Positions 24,017 to 42,690 of a DNA stretch of 64,000 nt are shown in pieces. The stretch covers positions 519,195 through 583,194 of the forward strand of contig NZ_RBWE01000001.1 in the NCBI RefSeq assembly GCF_003627965.1, read 5' to 3'. The stretch is from Desulfofundulus salinus (lineage in GTDB: Bacteria > Bacillota > Desulfotomaculia > Desulfotomaculales > Desulfovirgulaceae). Both the position numbers and the translations under genes were made by a program. Below the pieces are notes generated by a model. It did not search any database. It was not told the origin of the DNA and saw only the letters and a program-made list of their open reading frames with translations. The number at the start of each line of letters is the position of its first letter. The first letter of the stretch is position 1.

Positions 24017-24039
24017 GTCTACCCCAAAAGTATAGCTGT

Positions 24040-24136
24040 GTTCTCCTTTCCGCACTGGGAGGCACGCCGGTTTCCCGGCATACCCTGTCGGCCCGAAAAC
24101 CATAGCCCTGGCCACAGGTAATCGGGCTCGGAGAAC
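24040..24136 (-). promoter_or_regulatory. Moco/tungsten-cofactor riboswitch aptamer
   Basis: 97-nt RNA on the minus strand closed by the 7-bp P1 stem GTTCTCC / GGAGAAC (24136-24130 with 24046-24040). Inside are GCCCGA / TCGGGC (P2), a CCTG / CAGG hairpin in the position of P3, the GCCGG-GAAA-CCGGC hairpin, and the conserved GTGCCTCCC and GCGGAAAGGAG stretches that I recognise from the Moco RNA motif. The 3' arm of P1 shares GAAC with the antiterminator, so ligand binding should favour termination. Controls tupA-tupC. Confidence 0.8.
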
Positions 24137-24142
24137 GGTCAT

Positions 24143-24170
24143 ATTGTACTATTGCCAGGCTATCACACAA
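24143..24170 (-). promoter_or_regulatory. Sigma-A promoter of the tupAC leader
   Basis: Minus strand TTGTGT (24170-24165), 16 bases, TACAAT (24148-24143). The start point predicted at about 24136 coincides with the first base of the aptamer, which supports both calls. Confidence 0.65.
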
Positions 24171-33535: not shown

Positions 33536-33563
33536 TTGACATTAAGTAGAATCGTGTTATATT
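33536..33563 (+). promoter_or_regulatory. Sigma-A promoter of the c-di-GMP riboswitch operon
   Basis: TTGACA (33536-33541), 16 bases, TATATT (33558-33563). It begins a leader of about 500 bases. The first 210 bases before the aptamer include a 31-codon frame from ATG 33648 (MALVPVVMDLQGLNFSLVGN) that vaguely resembles the start of precorrin-2 dehydrogenase/siroheme synthase; no ribosome site is clear, and I do not call it a gene. Confidence 0.75.
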
Positions 33564-33779
33564 ACATTGTCTTGCTTCTTTCGGAAAGGAAAATAAAATA
33601 TAGATATCGTATATTAACTTTTGGGTGCAGGTATCTTGTTTGCGGACATGGCTTTGGTACCGGTGGTTATGGATCTTCAGGGGCTGAATTTTTCGCTGGT
33701 CGGAAATTTTCTGTGTTCTGGCGGTGTTGAATCAGCCTTTTAAGTGTTAAATTAAAAACTTTACTGTCTTTATTGTGTT

Positions 33780-33857
33780 AAAGGCAAACCACTCGAAAGG
33801 GTGGGGCGCAAAGCCATGGGTCTGCAGCCCTAAAGGGTATGACTGCCAGGCTGCCGC
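33780..33857 (+). promoter_or_regulatory. Cyclic di-GMP-I (GEMM) riboswitch
   Basis: Class-I c-di-GMP aptamer: AAAGGCAAACC with the CTCGAAAGGG tetraloop hairpin, GGGGCGCAAAGCCATGGG (P2 and the ligand-binding A/C residues), CCCTAAAGGG hairpin and the closing GACTGCCAGGCTGCCG. GGCA (33782-33785) closes with TGCC (33852-33855) as P1. All conserved blocks are in order and at normal spacing. It precedes the operon starting at 34069 by 210 bases. Confidence 0.88.
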
Positions 33858-33918
33858 GATAAAGGTATTGATTGTTTTCTTTTTAATGATGTTTTGTTGC
33901 GGCAGCCTGGTCAGGCTG
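33846..33918 (+). promoter_or_regulatory. Expression platform of the c-di-GMP riboswitch
   Basis: CCAGGCTGCCGC, the 3' strand of the aptamer (33846-33857), is perfectly complementary over 12 bases to GCGGCAGCCTGG (33899-33910). That downstream arm can instead fold on CAGGCTG (33912-33918). Thus ligand binding and the 12-bp helix exclude each other. No U-run follows 33918, so the output is not a plain terminator; the T-rich stretch between the arms (33872-33897) and about 150 more leader bases leave the mechanism open. Confidence 0.6.
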
Positions 33919-34068
33919 TCGTTCCTGCTTATAAAAGTATGTTTATCCATTTGGGGTATAGAGGTCGACTCTAACAGAGCCAATGGCTGGGACGTTTGCT
34001 GGCAGTATTGTGGCAATTGAAAGGGCATAGGGCCGGGAGGGGCTGAAAGGCAGAAGGGTGGTGAAAAA

Positions 34069-35340
34069 ATGCAACGGTGTCTTGAATGCGCAAAGAAAGA
34101 ACCGGACCGTCCTTGTGTGGAGTGCCAGTATTTTGTCCAGCTAAGCCCCCTTCGGCGGGTGCCTTCGCCGCCTGTCCGGGTGTTACTGGAAGATGAGCAT
34201 GGCAGGCAGTATCCGGCTCGCATCCTGGTGTTAAATACCACGGAGTTTGGGCTGGAAACGGAAGCTCCTGTTCCGGGGCGGTATGTAATCAGGCTGCAGG
34301 AAAACTTGTGGGTCGAGGTGGCCGGGGTACCGTTCAAAGGGAAAAATAACGTCCACGTTTTTGATATCCTGTGTGTCCACCGGAAGCAGGGGACTGCCCG
34401 TCGTCTTAGCAGGGAGGAGTATCAGTTGCTGGCCGGAAGCGCCGGCGAGCTAATACAGGAGATTTCCCGGCACTTGCCGGAGCACCTTCAGGACCTGGTC
34501 AGGGAGAAACTGCTGGCTGAGGTGGAGAAATCCGAACTAATTAACGCTCTCAGGGTGGGGAAGGTGATGAAATATGAAGGAGGGCGCTTCCGCTACCTTT
34601 CGGGCCAGGCTGACCTGGACCTGCCTATGGAAGAAGCGGAAAAACTGATGCGCCAGGCTATCCGCCAGGCCGAACACCGCCGCGAGGTGATCATTAGCGC
34701 TGACGGGCAAAAGGTGTTTGACCTTCACGGCGTGCCCTTCGACCACAGGAGCGGTGGACTGCTGGCCTTTGACATCACCGAGGTGATTGAAAAGGAGAGA
34801 AAGATGCACCAGCAGGAGATGCAGGCTTACCGGGAGGCCATAGCGGCGGTAACGGGGGGCCGGTTATACCTGGTGAATAGTGGAGAAATGGAAAAAGTGA
34901 TCTCAGAAGGGACGGAACTGGCCAGGGGTGAGGTCCGGCAGACCCATGACATTCCGGAAGCCCGCCGGGCAATGCGGGAAGCCTTGCCTGTTCTCGACAG
35001 CCGCAGGCAGCATGCGATTGCCTTGTGCTTGACAGAGGCGCTGGCCAATGCTCTCAAACATGCAGGGGGCGGTTGCTGGCAAGCCAGGCAGTCAGGGGAC
35101 ACCGTCAGGATTATCGTTCAGGACCGGGGTCCGGGAATCAAAACCAGCGAATTGGCCCGGGCAACGCTGATGCAACATTATTCAACCAAGAATTCCCTGG
35201 GGTGTGGATTTACCCTGATGCTCTACTATGCGGACCACCTCTACCTTAATACAGGACCGTCAGGTACCGCCCTGGCCCTGGACTTTGGCGTTGTGCCTGC
35301 AGGTAGGTTAAAACCGGACAAGACCAATGAAAGAGGGTGA
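34069..35340 (+). CDS. RsbW-type serine kinase with PAS-like and N-terminal regulatory domains
   Basis: 423-aa soluble protein. N-terminus CLEC...CVEC gives four cysteines (residues 4, 7, 16, 19), a probable zinc ribbon; residues 35-110 (PARILVLNTTEFGLETEAPVPG) form a beta-rich domain faintly like PilZ. A PAS-like domain follows (about 150-255), then a coiled segment and an HATPase_c domain (ALCLTEALANALKHAGGG N box, VQDRGPGIK, GCGFTLML). The ATPase is of the anti-sigma-factor kinase type and lacks HisKA, so it should phosphorylate STAS proteins. ATG 34069 follows GGGTGG. First gene of the operon; overlaps the STAS gene. Confidence 0.82.
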   Translation: MQRCLECAKKEPDRPCVECQYFVQLSPLRRVPSPPVRVLLEDEHGRQYPARILVLNTTEFGLETEAPVPGRYVIRLQENLWVEVAGVPFKGKNNVHVFDILCVHRKQGTARRLSREEYQLLAGSAGELIQEISRHLPEHLQDLVREKLLAEVEKSELINALRVGKVMKYEGGRFRYLSGQADLDLPMEEAEKLMRQAIRQAEHRREVIISADGQKVFDLHGVPFDHRSGGLLAFDITEVIEKERKMHQQEMQAYREAIAAVTGGRLYLVNSGEMEKVISEGTELARGEVRQTHDIPEARRAMREALPVLDSRRQHAIALCLTEALANALKHAGGGCWQARQSGDTVRIIVQDRGPGIKTSELARATLMQHYSTKNSLGCGFTLMLYYADHLYLNTGPSGTALALDFGVVPAGRLKPDKTNERG

Positions 35341-35666
35341 TTTTGTTGCTGAAAGTGGATGTTTACGTTGACCGGGGGGTGTGCCGGGTAGTGCTGAACG
35401 GTGAATTGGACGTGGAAACGGTAGCACAATTGCAAGAAGTTGTTGGGAAGGTGGAGGAACACACACTGGAAGTTGACCTCTCGGGCGTTTCTTTCGTTGA
35501 TTCCACCGGTTTGAAAAGTTTGCTGGACATTAGCAACGACTGGCGGCAAAAAGGAGGCCAGATGCTGATTTTGAGGCCGCAACCTGATGTGGCGGAGGTG
35601 ATGCGGCTGGTAGGGCTGGACAGGCTCCTGGCGCAAAACACCGCTCCGGGCGGAGAAGAGAGGTAG
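35337..35666 (+). CDS. STAS-domain anti-sigma-factor antagonist, copy 1
   Basis: About 107 aa, the size of SpoIIAA/RsbV. NGELDVETVAQLQEVV and the phospho-acceptor loop FVDSTGLKSL (Ser in DST) are typical. The frame opens at GTG 35337 inside the previous stop; the AAGAGGG site at 35331 better fits TTG 35343 or 35346 (start LKVDVYVDRG). Expected substrate of the kinase upstream and of the phosphatase eight bases downstream. Confidence 0.88.
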   Translation: MILLLKVDVYVDRGVCRVVLNGELDVETVAQLQEVVGKVEEHTLEVDLSGVSFVDSTGLKSLLDISNDWRQKGGQMLILRPQPDVAEVMRLVGLDRLLAQNTAPGGEER

Positions 35667-35673
35667 GAGCAGG

Positions 35674-36399
35674 ATGGGAGAAGTGATTACAGGGAATGGA
35701 AAAATACTAAGGGCTTACGGGTTGGAAGTTAGTGGGTGTAGCCTGCCTGCCGAACAGGTCGGGGGAGATTTTTTTGAGTTTATTTCCTGCGACGAGAGAA
35801 CCGTATTTACCGTCATCGGAGACGTAATGGGTAAAGGATTCCATGCGGCCCGGCTGATGGAAACAATCCGCCATATGCTCCGGGAGTGTATCAGGATTAA
35901 TCCCCATCCTCTGGAGGTGGTGCGCCGGTTAAACAGGGTGGGAGGGGATGAACTGCGGAAATGCGGGGCTTTTGCCACCCTATGCCTGCTGTGTTACGAC
36001 GGGATAGCTGGACGACTCACCTGTGTCAATGCAGGGCACCACCCTCCCCTCCTTCTATCTGACGGCAAGGTGAAAGTGGCCCGGTGCCGGGGAGTCGCCC
36101 TGGGCCTGCTGGAAGATTACCTTGGGTCAGGGGAGGAGGAATTTTTTCTTGCCGACGGAGATGCGGTGGTGCTGTATACCGATGGACTTGTGGAGGCCTG
36201 TGGACCGGGCGAGCAAAGGTACGGGCAGGAACGATTGAAGGAGATAGTTCGCCTTCAGAATGGTGCTGATGCAGACAGGATGAGACAAAACATTTTATCT
36301 GACCTGGAGACATTTACCCGCGGTTTTTCCCAAAAGGATGACGTGACACTGGTTGTTATGAAGGTGACGGGAAAGGCAGGTGAAAGGGGTGGAAATTAG
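35674..36399 (+). CDS. SpoIIE/RsbU-type PP2C serine phosphatase
   Basis: 241 aa, just the catalytic domain. Metal-binding motifs GGDFFEF, GDVMGKG, NAGHHPPLLL, YTDGLVEA and KDDVTLVV are intact, so it should dephosphorylate phospho-STAS proteins. No sensory domain or transmembrane segment is attached; regulation must come from expression level or partners. AGGAG precedes ATG 35674. Overlaps the next STAS gene by 20 bases. Confidence 0.92.
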   Translation: MGEVITGNGKILRAYGLEVSGCSLPAEQVGGDFFEFISCDERTVFTVIGDVMGKGFHAARLMETIRHMLRECIRINPHPLEVVRRLNRVGGDELRKCGAFATLCLLCYDGIAGRLTCVNAGHHPPLLLSDGKVKVARCRGVALGLLEDYLGSGEEEFFLADGDAVVLYTDGLVEACGPGEQRYGQERLKEIVRLQNGADADRMRQNILSDLETFTRGFSQKDDVTLVVMKVTGKAGERGGN

Positions 36400-36700
36400 A
36401 GTCCAGCAAAAGGAAGGGATGGCGATCCTGGAGGTGGAGGGCGAACTGGATTTCAGCAATGTGGAGCAGTTGCAACAGGAAATTCAGCGACGGACGGAAG
36501 AAGTGGTGGAGATAGATCTGCAGGGACTCCGGTTCATAGACTCTTCCGGGGTGGGGATGCTTCTGAGTCAGGTCAGACACCTGTACAAGCAGGGGCGTAC
36601 CTTGAGAATTGTTCGTATCCCCGATTTTATTCGAGAAGACCTGGATGTAATAGGTTTTTTTCAAGTACTGGAAGCTCTTAAGACAAATCCCAACGCTTAG
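36380..36700 (+). CDS. STAS-domain protein, copy 2
   Basis: 106 aa. VEGELDFSNVEQLQQEI and the acceptor loop FIDSSGVGML; only moderately like the first STAS protein, so the two probably have separate partners. GTG 36380 (after GGAAAGGCAG) or GTG 36389. Translationally coupled to the phosphatase. Followed 17 bases on by FapA. Confidence 0.88.
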   Translation: MKGVEIRVQQKEGMAILEVEGELDFSNVEQLQQEIQRRTEEVVEIDLQGLRFIDSSGVGMLLSQVRHLYKQGRTLRIVRIPDFIREDLDVIGFFQVLEALKTNPNA

Positions 36701-36717
36701 CAGGAGGTGGGTTCCTT

Positions 36718-38595
36718 ATGAAATATAAAGAAACTATCCGGGGCTCCCCCGCAGCAACAGCGAGTACAGTGGACAATGCTTTTCCGGATGGAGAATCGGT
36801 GGGTCCATATGCTTTTGTGAAACAGGGGCGCCTTGTTGTATGGCACCGGCCGGAGGGACCTTACCCGGTGGTGGTACCTTGTCCGGGGGTAAGGCTGATT
36901 GTTAACGGCCGGGAGTGCACTCAACCCACCCCCGTATCCATGAAGGATACGGTGCGGGTGGAAACGGTGGAAGAGCGTAGAGAAGGGAGCTGGTCTGTAT
37001 CCGTTTCTTCCGATGGTCTACAAGCGATATTGCGAACGCGCCCTGCGGTGGTAGTTCACCGGGAACTGCCGGATCTCCCGCCTGCCAGGGTACTGCAACT
37101 GAAGGTAGTGGAACGGGAAGAACGTTTTCCCCCACTCACATGGGACGAACTATTGCGGGAGTTGTCCCGGCTGGGAATTAACTATGGCGTAGACTGGGAA
37201 GCTTGCTTTCGTGTTACATCCTGCGCTGAAGAGGAGGTGGTTATCGCCCGGGGTATTCCTGCGGAACCGGGAAAAGACAGCCGGGTAGAATTGCTTTTTT
37301 CTTCTAATTCCAAGGTACCGGTACCGGCGGGGGAAAACGAAGCGGTGGATTTCCGGGAACGCTATGTTTTTACTTCGGTGGAGGCGGGAGACGTCCTGGC
37401 TGTCAAACACCCGCCTGAGCCGGGTCGTCCCGGCACCAGCGTCAAGGGTGAGGTAATTGTGCCGCCGTCGCCCCGGGACTTCATCCTTTCGGTAGGCGAA
37501 GGGGCGGTGCTTACCAGGGATGGTGATCGGGCCGTAGCGGCCCGGCCTGGACGTCCTGTGGCCTCCCGCTGGCGCAACTTAGTAAAGGTAAGTGTGTTAC
37601 CTGAGCTGGTGCATGATGGTGACGTAGACCTTGCTTCAGGTAACATTGTCTTTAAAGGAGATATCCTGATTGCCGGTAATGTGGCAGAAGGGATGGTGGT
37701 AGAAGCGGGCGGGAATGTCAGGGTGGGAGGGTTGGTCTCCGGCGCGAGGGTTCAGGCCACGGGTTCCGTCCTGGTTGGGAGGAATATCCTCTCATCAATA
37801 GTGATTGCTGGAGGAGCCCCTGCTTTCCTGCAAATAATGCTGCCACAGGTTCATACCCTGGCGGCTGGTTTGCAGGAGATGACCATGGCTATCCGGCAGT
37901 TACTGGGTCACCCGGCGTTCAAGCAGGGCGATCTTAAACGCGGTATCGGCCCCCTGGTAAAGTTGCTCTTGGAGGGGAAGTTTCGCCACCTTCCCGCTGC
38001 CGCAAGTACTTTCAAGAAGCAGGTTGAAACCATGCCCCCGGGAATGGTCGCTGAAGGCCTGGAAGAGTTTATCCGGGAAATCGAACGGGCGCTGGTTCGT
38101 TCTCCTCTGGCCGTGCGTGACCTCCGGGAGATCGAAACATTGGCCCGACGAGCCGGGGAATGGGAACAGGCCTTTGCGTCCCCGCCGTCTGCAGAAAGTG
38201 ATGTGGTGGCGTCAAGCGTCCACAATTCTACCGTTGTAGCTACCGGCGATGTCCTGGTGGTGGGGAGTGGTTGTTATAATTCCCGGATCCAGGCTGGTAA
38301 GAAAGTGACTGTATCCGGGGTATTTCGTGGTGGCGAGATACAGGCTGGCGGGGATGTGCATGTGGGAGAGTTGGGGTCCAGAGGTGGGGCCACTACGAGG
38401 GTGGTGACTGGCCCGGCAGCCGTGGTAACCGTAGGATATGCCTTTGAGAACGCTTCTATAGTGGTGGGCGGCCGGGTTTATCGTTTTGATAGGGAGGAAA
38501 AAGGCATCCGCCTCTGGTTGGATAAAGAAGGGAACCTCAGGTCCAAAGGAATTCCAGCTTGGGAAATTGCAGATCTGCCGCAAAACCGTCGCTGA
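36718..38595 (+). CDS. fapA: FapA-family (DUF342) polymer-forming protein
   Basis: 625 aa. An N-terminal region (1-120) unlike the rest, then the DUF342 core: PAEPGKDSRVELLFS, FTSVEAGDVLAVKHPPEPGRPGTSV, and a right-handed beta-helix of short repeats (GDVDLASGNIVFKGDILIAGN, VVEAGGNVRVGGLVSGARVQ, SVLVGRNILSS), a coiled central part (about 385-475), and a second set of beta repeats to the end. FapA acts on polar/flagellar protein localisation and histidine-kinase control in Vibrio; in Firmicutes the role is not settled. AGGAGG before ATG. Here it is the last gene of a partner-switching operon. Confidence 0.87.
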   Translation: MKYKETIRGSPAATASTVDNAFPDGESVGPYAFVKQGRLVVWHRPEGPYPVVVPCPGVRLIVNGRECTQPTPVSMKDTVRVETVEERREGSWSVSVSSDGLQAILRTRPAVVVHRELPDLPPARVLQLKVVEREERFPPLTWDELLRELSRLGINYGVDWEACFRVTSCAEEEVVIARGIPAEPGKDSRVELLFSSNSKVPVPAGENEAVDFRERYVFTSVEAGDVLAVKHPPEPGRPGTSVKGEVIVPPSPRDFILSVGEGAVLTRDGDRAVAARPGRPVASRWRNLVKVSVLPELVHDGDVDLASGNIVFKGDILIAGNVAEGMVVEAGGNVRVGGLVSGARVQATGSVLVGRNILSSIVIAGGAPAFLQIMLPQVHTLAAGLQEMTMAIRQLLGHPAFKQGDLKRGIGPLVKLLLEGKFRHLPAAASTFKKQVETMPPGMVAEGLEEFIREIERALVRSPLAVRDLREIETLARRAGEWEQAFASPPSAESDVVASSVHNSTVVATGDVLVVGSGCYNSRIQAGKKVTVSGVFRGGEIQAGGDVHVGELGSRGGATTRVVTGPAAVVTVGYAFENASIVVGGRVYRFDREEKGIRLWLDKEGNLRSKGIPAWEIADLPQNRR

Positions 38596-40360: not shown

Positions 40361-40431
40361 GGATGAGTATAGTGTGCACAGCAGTGTTCGGGCAATTACC
40401 ATTATACGGGGAGTGGTGTGGATACTCATCC
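40361..40431 (+). other. 10-bp inverted repeat upstream of the HD-GYP gene
   Basis: GGATGAGTAT (40361-40370) and ATACTCATCC (40422-40431) are perfect inverted copies 51 bases apart in the 235-bp gap after the tRNA terminator. Could be an operator pair or a leader fold; no promoter is clear. Confidence 0.4.
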
Positions 40432-40542
40432 ATCCGGGGCAGGACCGGGTGGTTGATATACTCTCCCGGTTTGTTCCAATGTTTCAATCCATATCTAACG
40501 CAACACGAATTACCGAAAAGGAGGGGGTGTGGGTCCACTATC

Positions 40543-42690
40543 ATGGATAAAGAAAAACTGGTGCCGTACTATGAAGAGCTGAAGCAAATTGGTTTGCAGG
40601 AGCTTCTGGAAAGTATGAGCCTGGCTCTGGGGCTGGCGGTAATGGCCACATATCCGGACGGGCGTCCGCTGACCGAACCGTCCAGCCAGTGTGCTTTCTG
40701 CACCCTGCTCAACACCAGCCCGGAAGGACGGGCCAGATGTGCGGATTCGCGTGCGAGCTCCGCCAGGATTGCTGTGGTTGCGGGGAAGGAAGTCATCCGC
40801 ACCTGTCACGCCGGGCTGGTACACCTGGCGGTTCCCCTGCGGGTGGCCGGAGAAATCGTGGCTGTAATGCTGGGCGGCAACGTGGCCCTGCGGCTGCCGG
40901 CGGAGGAGGCAGTGGTGCGGCTGGCCCGGGAAACTGGCCTTGACCCGGGAAAACTCCAGGCGGCAGCCGGAGCAATACCCATCTGGCCGGAAGAACGGCT
41001 CCGGGCAGCCATGGGGCTGGCACAGGCAGTAACGGGCACCGTGGCCCGGCTGCTGCACGCCAGGCAGGAACTTCAAAGGAAGGTGGACGAGCTTACCACT
41101 CTCTTTGAATTCACCCGGACGGTTACCAGCAGTATTCAGGTGACCGAAGTGGCGCAGCAGGCCCTGGAAGCCGTGCTGGGGTTGACCGGGGCCACCAGCG
41201 GGTCGGTGGTAATGTTGAATGAGGTGATGCCGGGGGTCACGGAAAGCGAAACGGCGGCTACCCTGGAGTCCTGCAACGAGTTCCGGGTCGTGCCTGCAGG
41301 CGAAATAGTCGCCGCCGTTGAACGGGAGGCCCGCGCCGCACACTTTGACAGCCGTCCCGAAGGTAGCACGCCTGAAGAGAAGCGGCCGGCGGTAGCCATA
41401 CCTCTTACGGTTGGGGGTAAGGTAACGGGCGTACTCACCATAGCGGGCAGGCCGGAAGGTGCGCATTTCACCGAAGATGAGACCGTTTTTTTAACTACCC
41501 TGGGCACCGGCCTGGGGCTGGCGCTGGAAAACGCCCGCCTGTTCCGCCAGCTGCAGGTAAGGGCGACCATGCTGGAACGGTTAATCGAAGTGGGTCAGGT
41601 GGTATCGAGCAGCCTCGATGTGGATCTGGTACTTCAGTCGGCTCTGGAGAATGTAAGGGACGTGCTGGGTGCACAATGGTGTGCGCTGCGGTTGCTTGAC
41701 GAGGAGACGGGCGAACTGGTGCTGAAAGCCGGCCTGGGCATGAGCGCGGAGCTGCAGGCCAGGGCAGGCCGTATCCGGCCGGACGGTACCCTGCTGGGCA
41801 GGGTGCTCCAGACGGGAAGACCCGCCGTAGTGGAAGACTTGGCCGCCAGCGGACCCGGTACGCACCTGCCCTACTATGCGGCCGAGATGCGGGCTGTGGC
41901 CGTGGTGCCGGTGAAGGTGGGTGGAAGGATCCTGGGCACGTTGAAGGTTTACTCCCCCGTACCGCGGCGCTGGAGTAAAGATGAAGTCAGTTACCTGGCG
42001 ACCATTGCGGGCCAGACCGGGCTGGCGCTGGAGAATGCCCGTCTCTACTCGTCGCTGCGGGAGTATTATTCGAGCGTCGTGCAGGCGCTGGCGGCGGCAC
42101 TGGAGGCCAGGGACGTTTATACAAAGGGTCATTCTGTGCGGGTGGCGAATTGGGCGCGGGCATGTGCCCGCGTGCTGGGACTTGGCGCCGGAGAACAGGA
42201 ACAGGTTTACCTGGCCGGGCTTTTACATGATCTGGGTAAGATCGGCGTGCGGGAAGACATCCTGCTCAAGCCGGGGCCCCTTACTACGGAAGAAAGAAGG
42301 GAGATGCAGAGCCACCCCGAGGTGGGGGCCAGGATCCTGGAACCGGCCAGATTTCCGGCGGCGGTCATTGCGGCCGTACGGCACCACCACGAGGACTTTG
42401 ACGGCGGTGGTTATCCCGCCGGTCTGGTGGGAGAAGAGATTCCTCTCCTGGCGCGCATTATCCGTGTGGCCGATACTTACGATGCCATGACGTCCGCCAG
42501 GCCCTACCGGCAGGCCTTTACTCCCCGGCAGGCGCGGGAGGAACTGCGGCGGTGGGCGGGCCGGCAGTTTGACCCGCGCGTGGTGGAGGCTTTCCTCCAG
42601 ATCCCGGAAGATGAAATGGTAGTTAATACCAATGGGGGGGGGGGTAGCTACTCTGCTGTTTCTACCGGCAGGTGTTGCTTCCTTCGCTGA
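40543..42690 (+). CDS. PocR-GAF-GAF-HD-GYP protein, probable c-di-GMP phosphodiesterase
   Basis: 715 aa from ATG 40543. Domains: PocR sensory domain (about 10-170; SSQCAFCTLLNTSPEGRARC, HAGLVHLAVPLRV), GAF 1 (about 195-330), GAF 2 (about 345-500), HD-GYP (about 515-690) with LLHDLGKIGVRED, HHHEDFDGGGYP and ARIIRVADTYDAMTSARPY. HD-GYP domains cleave c-di-GMP. The nearest ribosome site (AAAAGGAGGGGG, 40517) is rather far from the ATG. The C-terminal tail is read through 11 consecutive G (42634-42644), so its frame depends on that tract. Soluble; PocR domains bind small organic compounds. Confidence 0.88.
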   Translation: MDKEKLVPYYEELKQIGLQELLESMSLALGLAVMATYPDGRPLTEPSSQCAFCTLLNTSPEGRARCADSRASSARIAVVAGKEVIRTCHAGLVHLAVPLRVAGEIVAVMLGGNVALRLPAEEAVVRLARETGLDPGKLQAAAGAIPIWPEERLRAAMGLAQAVTGTVARLLHARQELQRKVDELTTLFEFTRTVTSSIQVTEVAQQALEAVLGLTGATSGSVVMLNEVMPGVTESETAATLESCNEFRVVPAGEIVAAVEREARAAHFDSRPEGSTPEEKRPAVAIPLTVGGKVTGVLTIAGRPEGAHFTEDETVFLTTLGTGLGLALENARLFRQLQVRATMLERLIEVGQVVSSSLDVDLVLQSALENVRDVLGAQWCALRLLDEETGELVLKAGLGMSAELQARAGRIRPDGTLLGRVLQTGRPAVVEDLAASGPGTHLPYYAAEMRAVAVVPVKVGGRILGTLKVYSPVPRRWSKDEVSYLATIAGQTGLALENARLYSSLREYYSSVVQALAAALEARDVYTKGHSVRVANWARACARVLGLGAGEQEQVYLAGLLHDLGKIGVREDILLKPGPLTTEERREMQSHPEVGARILEPARFPAAVIAAVRHHHEDFDGGGYPAGLVGEEIPLLARIIRVADTYDAMTSARPYRQAFTPRQAREELRRWAGRQFDPRVVEAFLQIPEDEMVVNTNGGGGSYSAVSTGRCCFLR

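Follow-up and report, generated by a model that had tools for sequence, protein, structure and literature searches.

Class-I riboswitches for cyclic di-guanosine monophosphate (c-di-GMP) exist in both directions, i.e., as ON and as OFF switches. Vc2 is described as gene-on (PMC12564702). Partner switches acting on c-di-GMP synthesis are known from SiaABCD, HsbA-HsbD and BgrSTUWV (PMC8457831), and in many bacteria FapA belongs to the flagellar genes of the sigma-28 set (PMC11607428). As a rule, c-di-GMP riboswitches are investigated separately from serine partner switches. Here we analyze a locus of Desulfofundulus salinus where both stand together: within a stretch of 64,000 nt (contig NZ_RBWE01000001.1, positions 519,195 to 583,194; called the window in the following), a c-di-GMP-I aptamer precedes an operon for a SpoIIAB/RsbW-type serine kinase, a STAS protein, a SpoIIE-type phosphatase, a second STAS protein and FapA. 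We read this as a partner-switching module whose synthesis would be set by c-di-GMP and whose output would be FapA in place of a sigma factor, and assign this reading a probability of roughly 0.55. Coordinates without a locus handle are window positions on the + strand unless marked otherwise.

Riboswitch, operon and their linkage

The first-pass annotation of this DNA had claimed a class-I c-di-GMP aptamer in front of the operon, and the GEMM-type check bears this out: cmscan reports a c-di-GMP-I-GGC riboswitch (RF03167) at 33774-33859 with 72.8 bits compared to a gathering score of 59 (E-value 2.6e-15). Within the alignment (A2), the GGCAAAC, GCAAAGCC and UGC blocks are retained, as are the ligand-contact positions equivalent to G20, A47 and C92 of Vc2. 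In this numbering, the aptamer carries G20, where cyclic GMP-AMP variants have A20. c-di-GMP is the predicted ligand.

All five genes downstream score above their Pfam cutoffs, and the previously proposed gene set stands, apart from the PAS domain (see below). They encode the kinase of 423 aa (34069-35340; HATPase_c_2, PF13581, 36.7 bits), STAS protein 1 (35337-35666; PF01740, 67.8 bits), the PPM phosphatase (35674-36399; PF07228, 151 bits), STAS protein 2, which adjoins FapA (36380-36700; PF01740, 68.9 bits), and FapA itself with FapA_N and beta-solenoid domains (36718-38595; PF20250, 124 bits, and PF03961, 111.6 bits). Both STAS proteins are also above the TIGR00377 cutoff. The gene overlaps noted before are found for two pairs, namely at 35337/35340 and 36380/36399. 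The phospho-acceptor serine lies in a D-S-[ST]-G motif, i.e., DSTG (acceptor motif DST) in the first and DSSG (DSS) in the second STAS protein, and nearly all relatives show the same. The metal-binding motifs of the phosphatase (GGD, GDVMGKG, TDG and DD) are all present. Almost all relatives retain these residues along with the STAS serines; a working phospho-cycle is therefore probable.

Kinase orthologs were gathered among relatives, among 84,980 species genomes and, via FapA, among 398 Bacillota genomes, and their upstream DNA was searched with Rfam and with a covariance model (R1) built from 13 aptamers. When searching with the kinase, Desulfofundulus thermosubterraneus and D. australicus come out among the nearest relatives. 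By our own tally, 30 assemblies have an orthologous operon along with enough upstream sequence; three loci (L053, L059, L074) were left out, as their contigs end too close upstream. These testable operons come from Desulfofundulus, Desulfoscipio, Desulfallas, Moorella, Pelotomaculum and others. In 26/30, an aptamer lies on the operon strand at 3-475 nt upstream of the first gene. Being relatives, the assemblies do not count as independent cases; coincidence at such a frequency is nevertheless excluded, because the 2.89-Mb genome has about seven c-di-GMP-I aptamers. Others of these lie before flagellar, type IV pilus, HD-domain/MCP (chemoreceptor) and transporter genes. The same search gave no aptamer match for 15 loci whose kinases are no more than distantly related (L076-L083, L085, L087-L092), and Rfam revealed no c-di-GMP-II or other riboswitch at the riboswitch-less loci L053, L059, L060 and L070-L073.

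With regard to its architecture, the kinase combines a CxxC-x8-CxxC motif, a predicted PilZ-like barrel, a middle region and a SpoIIAB/RsbW-type ATPase domain. The latter (residues 294-404, 34948-35280; PF13581/PF02518) retains the N-box EALANALKHA as well as the DRGPGI and GxGF motifs. The protein is an anti-sigma-type GHKL ATPase with N, G1 and G2 boxes, as expected of an RsbW/SpoIIAB-type kinase. The CxxC pairs precede the barrel in nearly all orthologs. For the N-terminal 125 residues, the AlphaFold2 (AF2) model reaches a predicted local distance difference test (pLDDT) value of 90, and its best PDB matches are the PilZ domains of Alg44, BcsA and PA0012 (probability 0.99-1.0, template modelling score ~0.5, E-value >0.01), while Pfam and PDB sequence searches gave no match for the N-terminus. 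The model thus predicts a resemblance to the PilZ fold (residues 28-105, 34150-34383). We rejected the kinase as a canonical PilZ receptor of c-di-GMP, given that LRRVP and NTTEFG are found where RxxxR and [DN]xSxxG are expected; relatives conserve neither. Direct c-di-GMP sensing by the kinase is possible and is not supported by the known motif. The PAS domain initially assigned to this gene found no Pfam support and falls into a region of low AF2 confidence; a PAS-like middle region is a tentative reading.

Proposed switch and its output

The 3' strand of the aptamer, AGGCTGCCGC (33848-33857), is a candidate antiterminator strand with 10-bp complementarity to 33899-33908. The latter, GCGGCAGCCT, forms the 5' arm of an intrinsic-terminator-like hairpin (33899-33922; 10 bp, -16.6 kcal/mol) and can alternatively pair with AGGCTGCCGC or with its own 3' arm AGGCTGTCGT (33913-33922). 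The antiterminator fold reaches -40 kcal/mol (z -7.75). Three-way pairing potential of this kind, with 7 bp as the minimum, is found in 22/30 leaders compared to roughly 9% for shuffled downstream sequence. When comparing leaders, a T tract follows the equivalent hairpin in many relatives. The antiterminator can form only at the expense of the aptamer, a part of which it uses up, so that bound ligand should promote termination; the expression platform would be an OFF switch.

Aptamer, genes, catalytic residues, conserved linkage and conserved competing hairpins are computed, and we propose the following mechanism around them. At high c-di-GMP, the aptamer would fold and hold 33848-33857, such that the terminator at 33899-33922 forms and transcription stops. 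At low c-di-GMP, 33848-33857 would pair with the terminator's 5' arm, no terminator would form, and the kinase, both STAS proteins, the phosphatase and FapA would be made. The kinase would then phosphorylate STAS protein 1, STAS protein 2 or both at the acceptor serine, which the phosphatase would reverse, and the phosphorylation state would decide whether STAS protein 2 binds FapA. FapA, elsewhere linked to flagellar assembly, would be the output replacing a sigma factor, and an effect of the module on motility is what we expect. The amount of the module would thus be set by c-di-GMP and its activity by a second signal; candidates are redox or metal via the CxxC pairs or, possibly, c-di-GMP again via the PilZ-like domain. 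Put generally, in many anaerobic bacteria c-di-GMP probably decides whether a serine-phosphorylation system is made at all.

The operon had been noted to lack a sigma factor, with FapA itself as one possible output, and both points gain support. A STAS gene adjoins FapA, before or after it, in most loci, and minimal sets of kinase, SpoIIE, FapA and a single STAS exist (L071 and L086). Two genomes keep FapA under the riboswitch without an intervening kinase operon: in G435 (L151 2124-9631, L145 537-5430) the aptamer stands directly before FapA, and genes for STAS, HATPase, SpoIIE, GGDEF and GGDEF-EAL proteins lie on the other side; G377 shows the order aptamer, HD-Spo0E, FapA. Finally, no sigma-70 family recurs among the 78 flanking genes of 15 loci (25 largest families inspected). 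A riboswitch-free operon next to a sigma factor, which the first-pass annotation had named as the pattern that would speak against its idea, is therefore not what the relatives show. For these reasons, FapA is favoured as the output of the module.

According to the foremost competing explanation, the module serves an unlinked sigma factor in the manner of classical partner switches, and FapA is a co-transcribed passenger that has its own role in motility. It agrees with the catalytic domain of the kinase, for which the closest profile is that of the anti-sigma F factor SpoIIAB (E-value 1.9e-8) and the closest folds are those of SpoIIAB and RsbW (Foldseek 1l0o, 1til, 6m36), and with the STAS proteins' match to the anti-sigma factor antagonist superfamily (TIGR00377). 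On the other hand, FapA and its STAS neighbour are the pair that stays constant while the arrangement around them differs widely, the two loci without an intervening kinase operon still hold FapA under the riboswitch, and no sigma-70 family recurs among the 25 largest families of the flanking genes. We consider the explanation unlikely, if to be taken seriously.

Several points weigh against FapA as the output of a c-di-GMP-repressed module. A kinase resembling SpoIIAB could have a sigma factor encoded elsewhere as its target, and contact between STAS and FapA is a prediction. The OFF logic is likewise predicted, being derived from pairing alone. Four of the 30 orthologous operons (L131, L132, L133, L144) are retained without a detectable riboswitch. 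In this genome, moreover, the T tract behind the terminator is weakened to TTCCTGCTT; attenuation may be leaky or aided by Rho or pausing.

An extension of the FapA reading is that c-di-GMP acts twice, i.e., on transcription via the riboswitch and on the kinase via its non-canonical PilZ domain, and that the switch acts on FapA, a cytoplasmic beta-solenoid protein, in place of a sigma factor; motility would thereby be coupled and, by way of the HD-Spo0E protein that relatives have, also sporulation. The operon of many relatives begins with a gene for an HD_5 (HD-GYP-like) protein, often with a Spo0E-like C-terminus (L034 3251-3988, L032 13595-14347, L036 7182-7967, L065 9140-9958). In these fusions the GYP motif is changed to GYE, GYA, GYV or GYL, which renders their phosphodiesterase activity uncertain. 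Through them, c-di-GMP might reach the control of sporulation. Taken as a whole, the extended scheme is quite doubtful.

A third explanation holds that the STAS proteins target c-di-GMP metabolism, i.e., HD-GYP, EAL or GGDEF proteins, which would turn riboswitch and partner switch into a feedback loop. SiaABCD, HsbA-HsbD and BgrSTUWV provide a precedent by controlling diguanylate cyclases via STAS-type partners (PMC8457831), and relatives have genes for HD_5, EAL or GGDEF proteins within the operon or next to it; in genome G048, e.g., the order is EAL gene, aptamer, kinase, FapA, STAS, HD_5, SpoIIE. In contrast, the window's operon contains no HD-GYP, EAL or GGDEF gene, and the nearest HD domain gene follows at a distance of about 1.8 kb, on the far side of downstream tRNA genes. 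The type also varies in relatives (HD_5, HD_5-Spo0E, EAL or none), and we regard a feedback loop as improbable. Least probable of all is an ON switch or translational control by which the module would increase at high c-di-GMP: class I includes ON as well as OFF switches and this genome has a weak T tract, but in the 22/30 leaders it is the 3' strand of the aptamer itself that serves the antiterminator, such that ligand should favour the terminator.

Flanking elements and variant arrangements

For the promoter of the first-pass annotation, a sigma-70-type candidate, TTGACA-16-TATATT, is present at 33536-33563 with 11/12 consensus matches. Since about 2.3 matches are expected by chance in such a region, the promoter is only plausible. 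Between it and the aptamer lies a conserved, terminator-like stem-loop (33679-33741; fold z -3.97), for which relatives show similar structures with base changes on both stem sides. An upstream tandem aptamer is intact in L062 (992-1087), weak in L052 (9532-9603) and apparently deleted in this genome; the stem-loop is probably the platform left by the lost c-di-GMP aptamer. An open reading frame (ORF) of 81 aa that spans the riboswitch (33775-34020) was judged to be due to chance.

L052 and L061 are metagenome-assembled genomes titled Armatimonadetes and Actinobacteria, respectively. Their kinase operons are 93% and 81% identical to that of the window, and both bins are probably mislabelled or contaminated.

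Distant versions of the locus with an aptamer occur in Halanaerobia and Bacillaceae; among the distant versions that carry it are those of G048 and of Candidatus Frackibacter (L086). Clusters with a fusion of HD_5 and kinase carry the aptamer in Desulfallas (L058), Peribacillus (L075), Robertmurraya (L084) and a Clostridiales bin (L074). A second riboswitch-linked cluster is seen in L034 (8859-14080) as well as in L074, L075, L084, L127 and L129; it comprises STAS, a small membrane protein, an HD_5-HATPase fusion kinase, SpoIIE and sometimes FapA.

With regard to further riboswitches, a second aptamer of G435 precedes an MCP-CheW-CheB chemotaxis operon. A gene for a CitMHS/ArsB-type transporter, which is an unexpected target, lies behind a c-di-GMP-I riboswitch in L041 (8395-10036). 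The window also holds a molybdenum/tungsten cofactor riboswitch at 24027-24145 on the - strand (RF01055, 81.4 bits).

Concerning FapA, sequence comparison turned up no relative with a solved structure. For the second FapA of the genome (L094), a sigma-28 neighbourhood was looked for, and none is clear in the ORF list. Beyond the tRNA cluster, about 1.8 kb downstream of the window's FapA, an ORF of 775 aa (40363-42690) has an HD-GYP-like C-terminus (HDLGK, GGGYPAGL).

Comparison with known systems

We found no report of a c-di-GMP riboswitch controlling a SpoIIE/STAS partner switch in the open-access papers searched. The parts are known, and it is their conserved wiring that appears to be new. 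With a partner switch under a riboswitch in at least 26 assemblies from several Bacillota lineages, the operon is a concrete case of layered signalling. The module furthermore gives defined candidate partners for FapA and thereby makes the function of FapA testable, along with the question of whether partner switches of Bacillota have such non-sigma outputs.

When related to other c-di-GMP-I (GEMM) riboswitches of RF03167, the element is alike in aptamer sequence and structure, in its 5' leader position and in the attenuator-like platform; it differs in its target, which is here a partner-switching operon. The protein set shares with SpoIIAB/SpoIIAA/SpoIIE and RsbW/RsbV/RsbU the kinase, STAS and PPM phosphatase components along with their conserved catalytic residues. 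In contrast to these switches, the window's module lacks a linked sigma factor and comprises a pair of STAS proteins as well as FapA within the operon; its kinase carries the CxxC pair motif and a predicted PilZ-like N-terminus, and its synthesis would be riboswitch-set. FapA (flagellar assembly protein A, DUF342) of Vibrio vulnificus and spirochetes has the same FapA_N and beta-solenoid domains and is tied to HubP or the sigma-28 flagellar set (PMC11607428), whereas here FapA ends a kinase-STAS-phosphatase operon. SiaABCD, HsbA-HsbD and BgrSTUWV, finally, also join a partner switch and c-di-GMP signalling, with the direction reversed: there the switch controls c-di-GMP synthesis, while here c-di-GMP is proposed to control the transcription of the switch.

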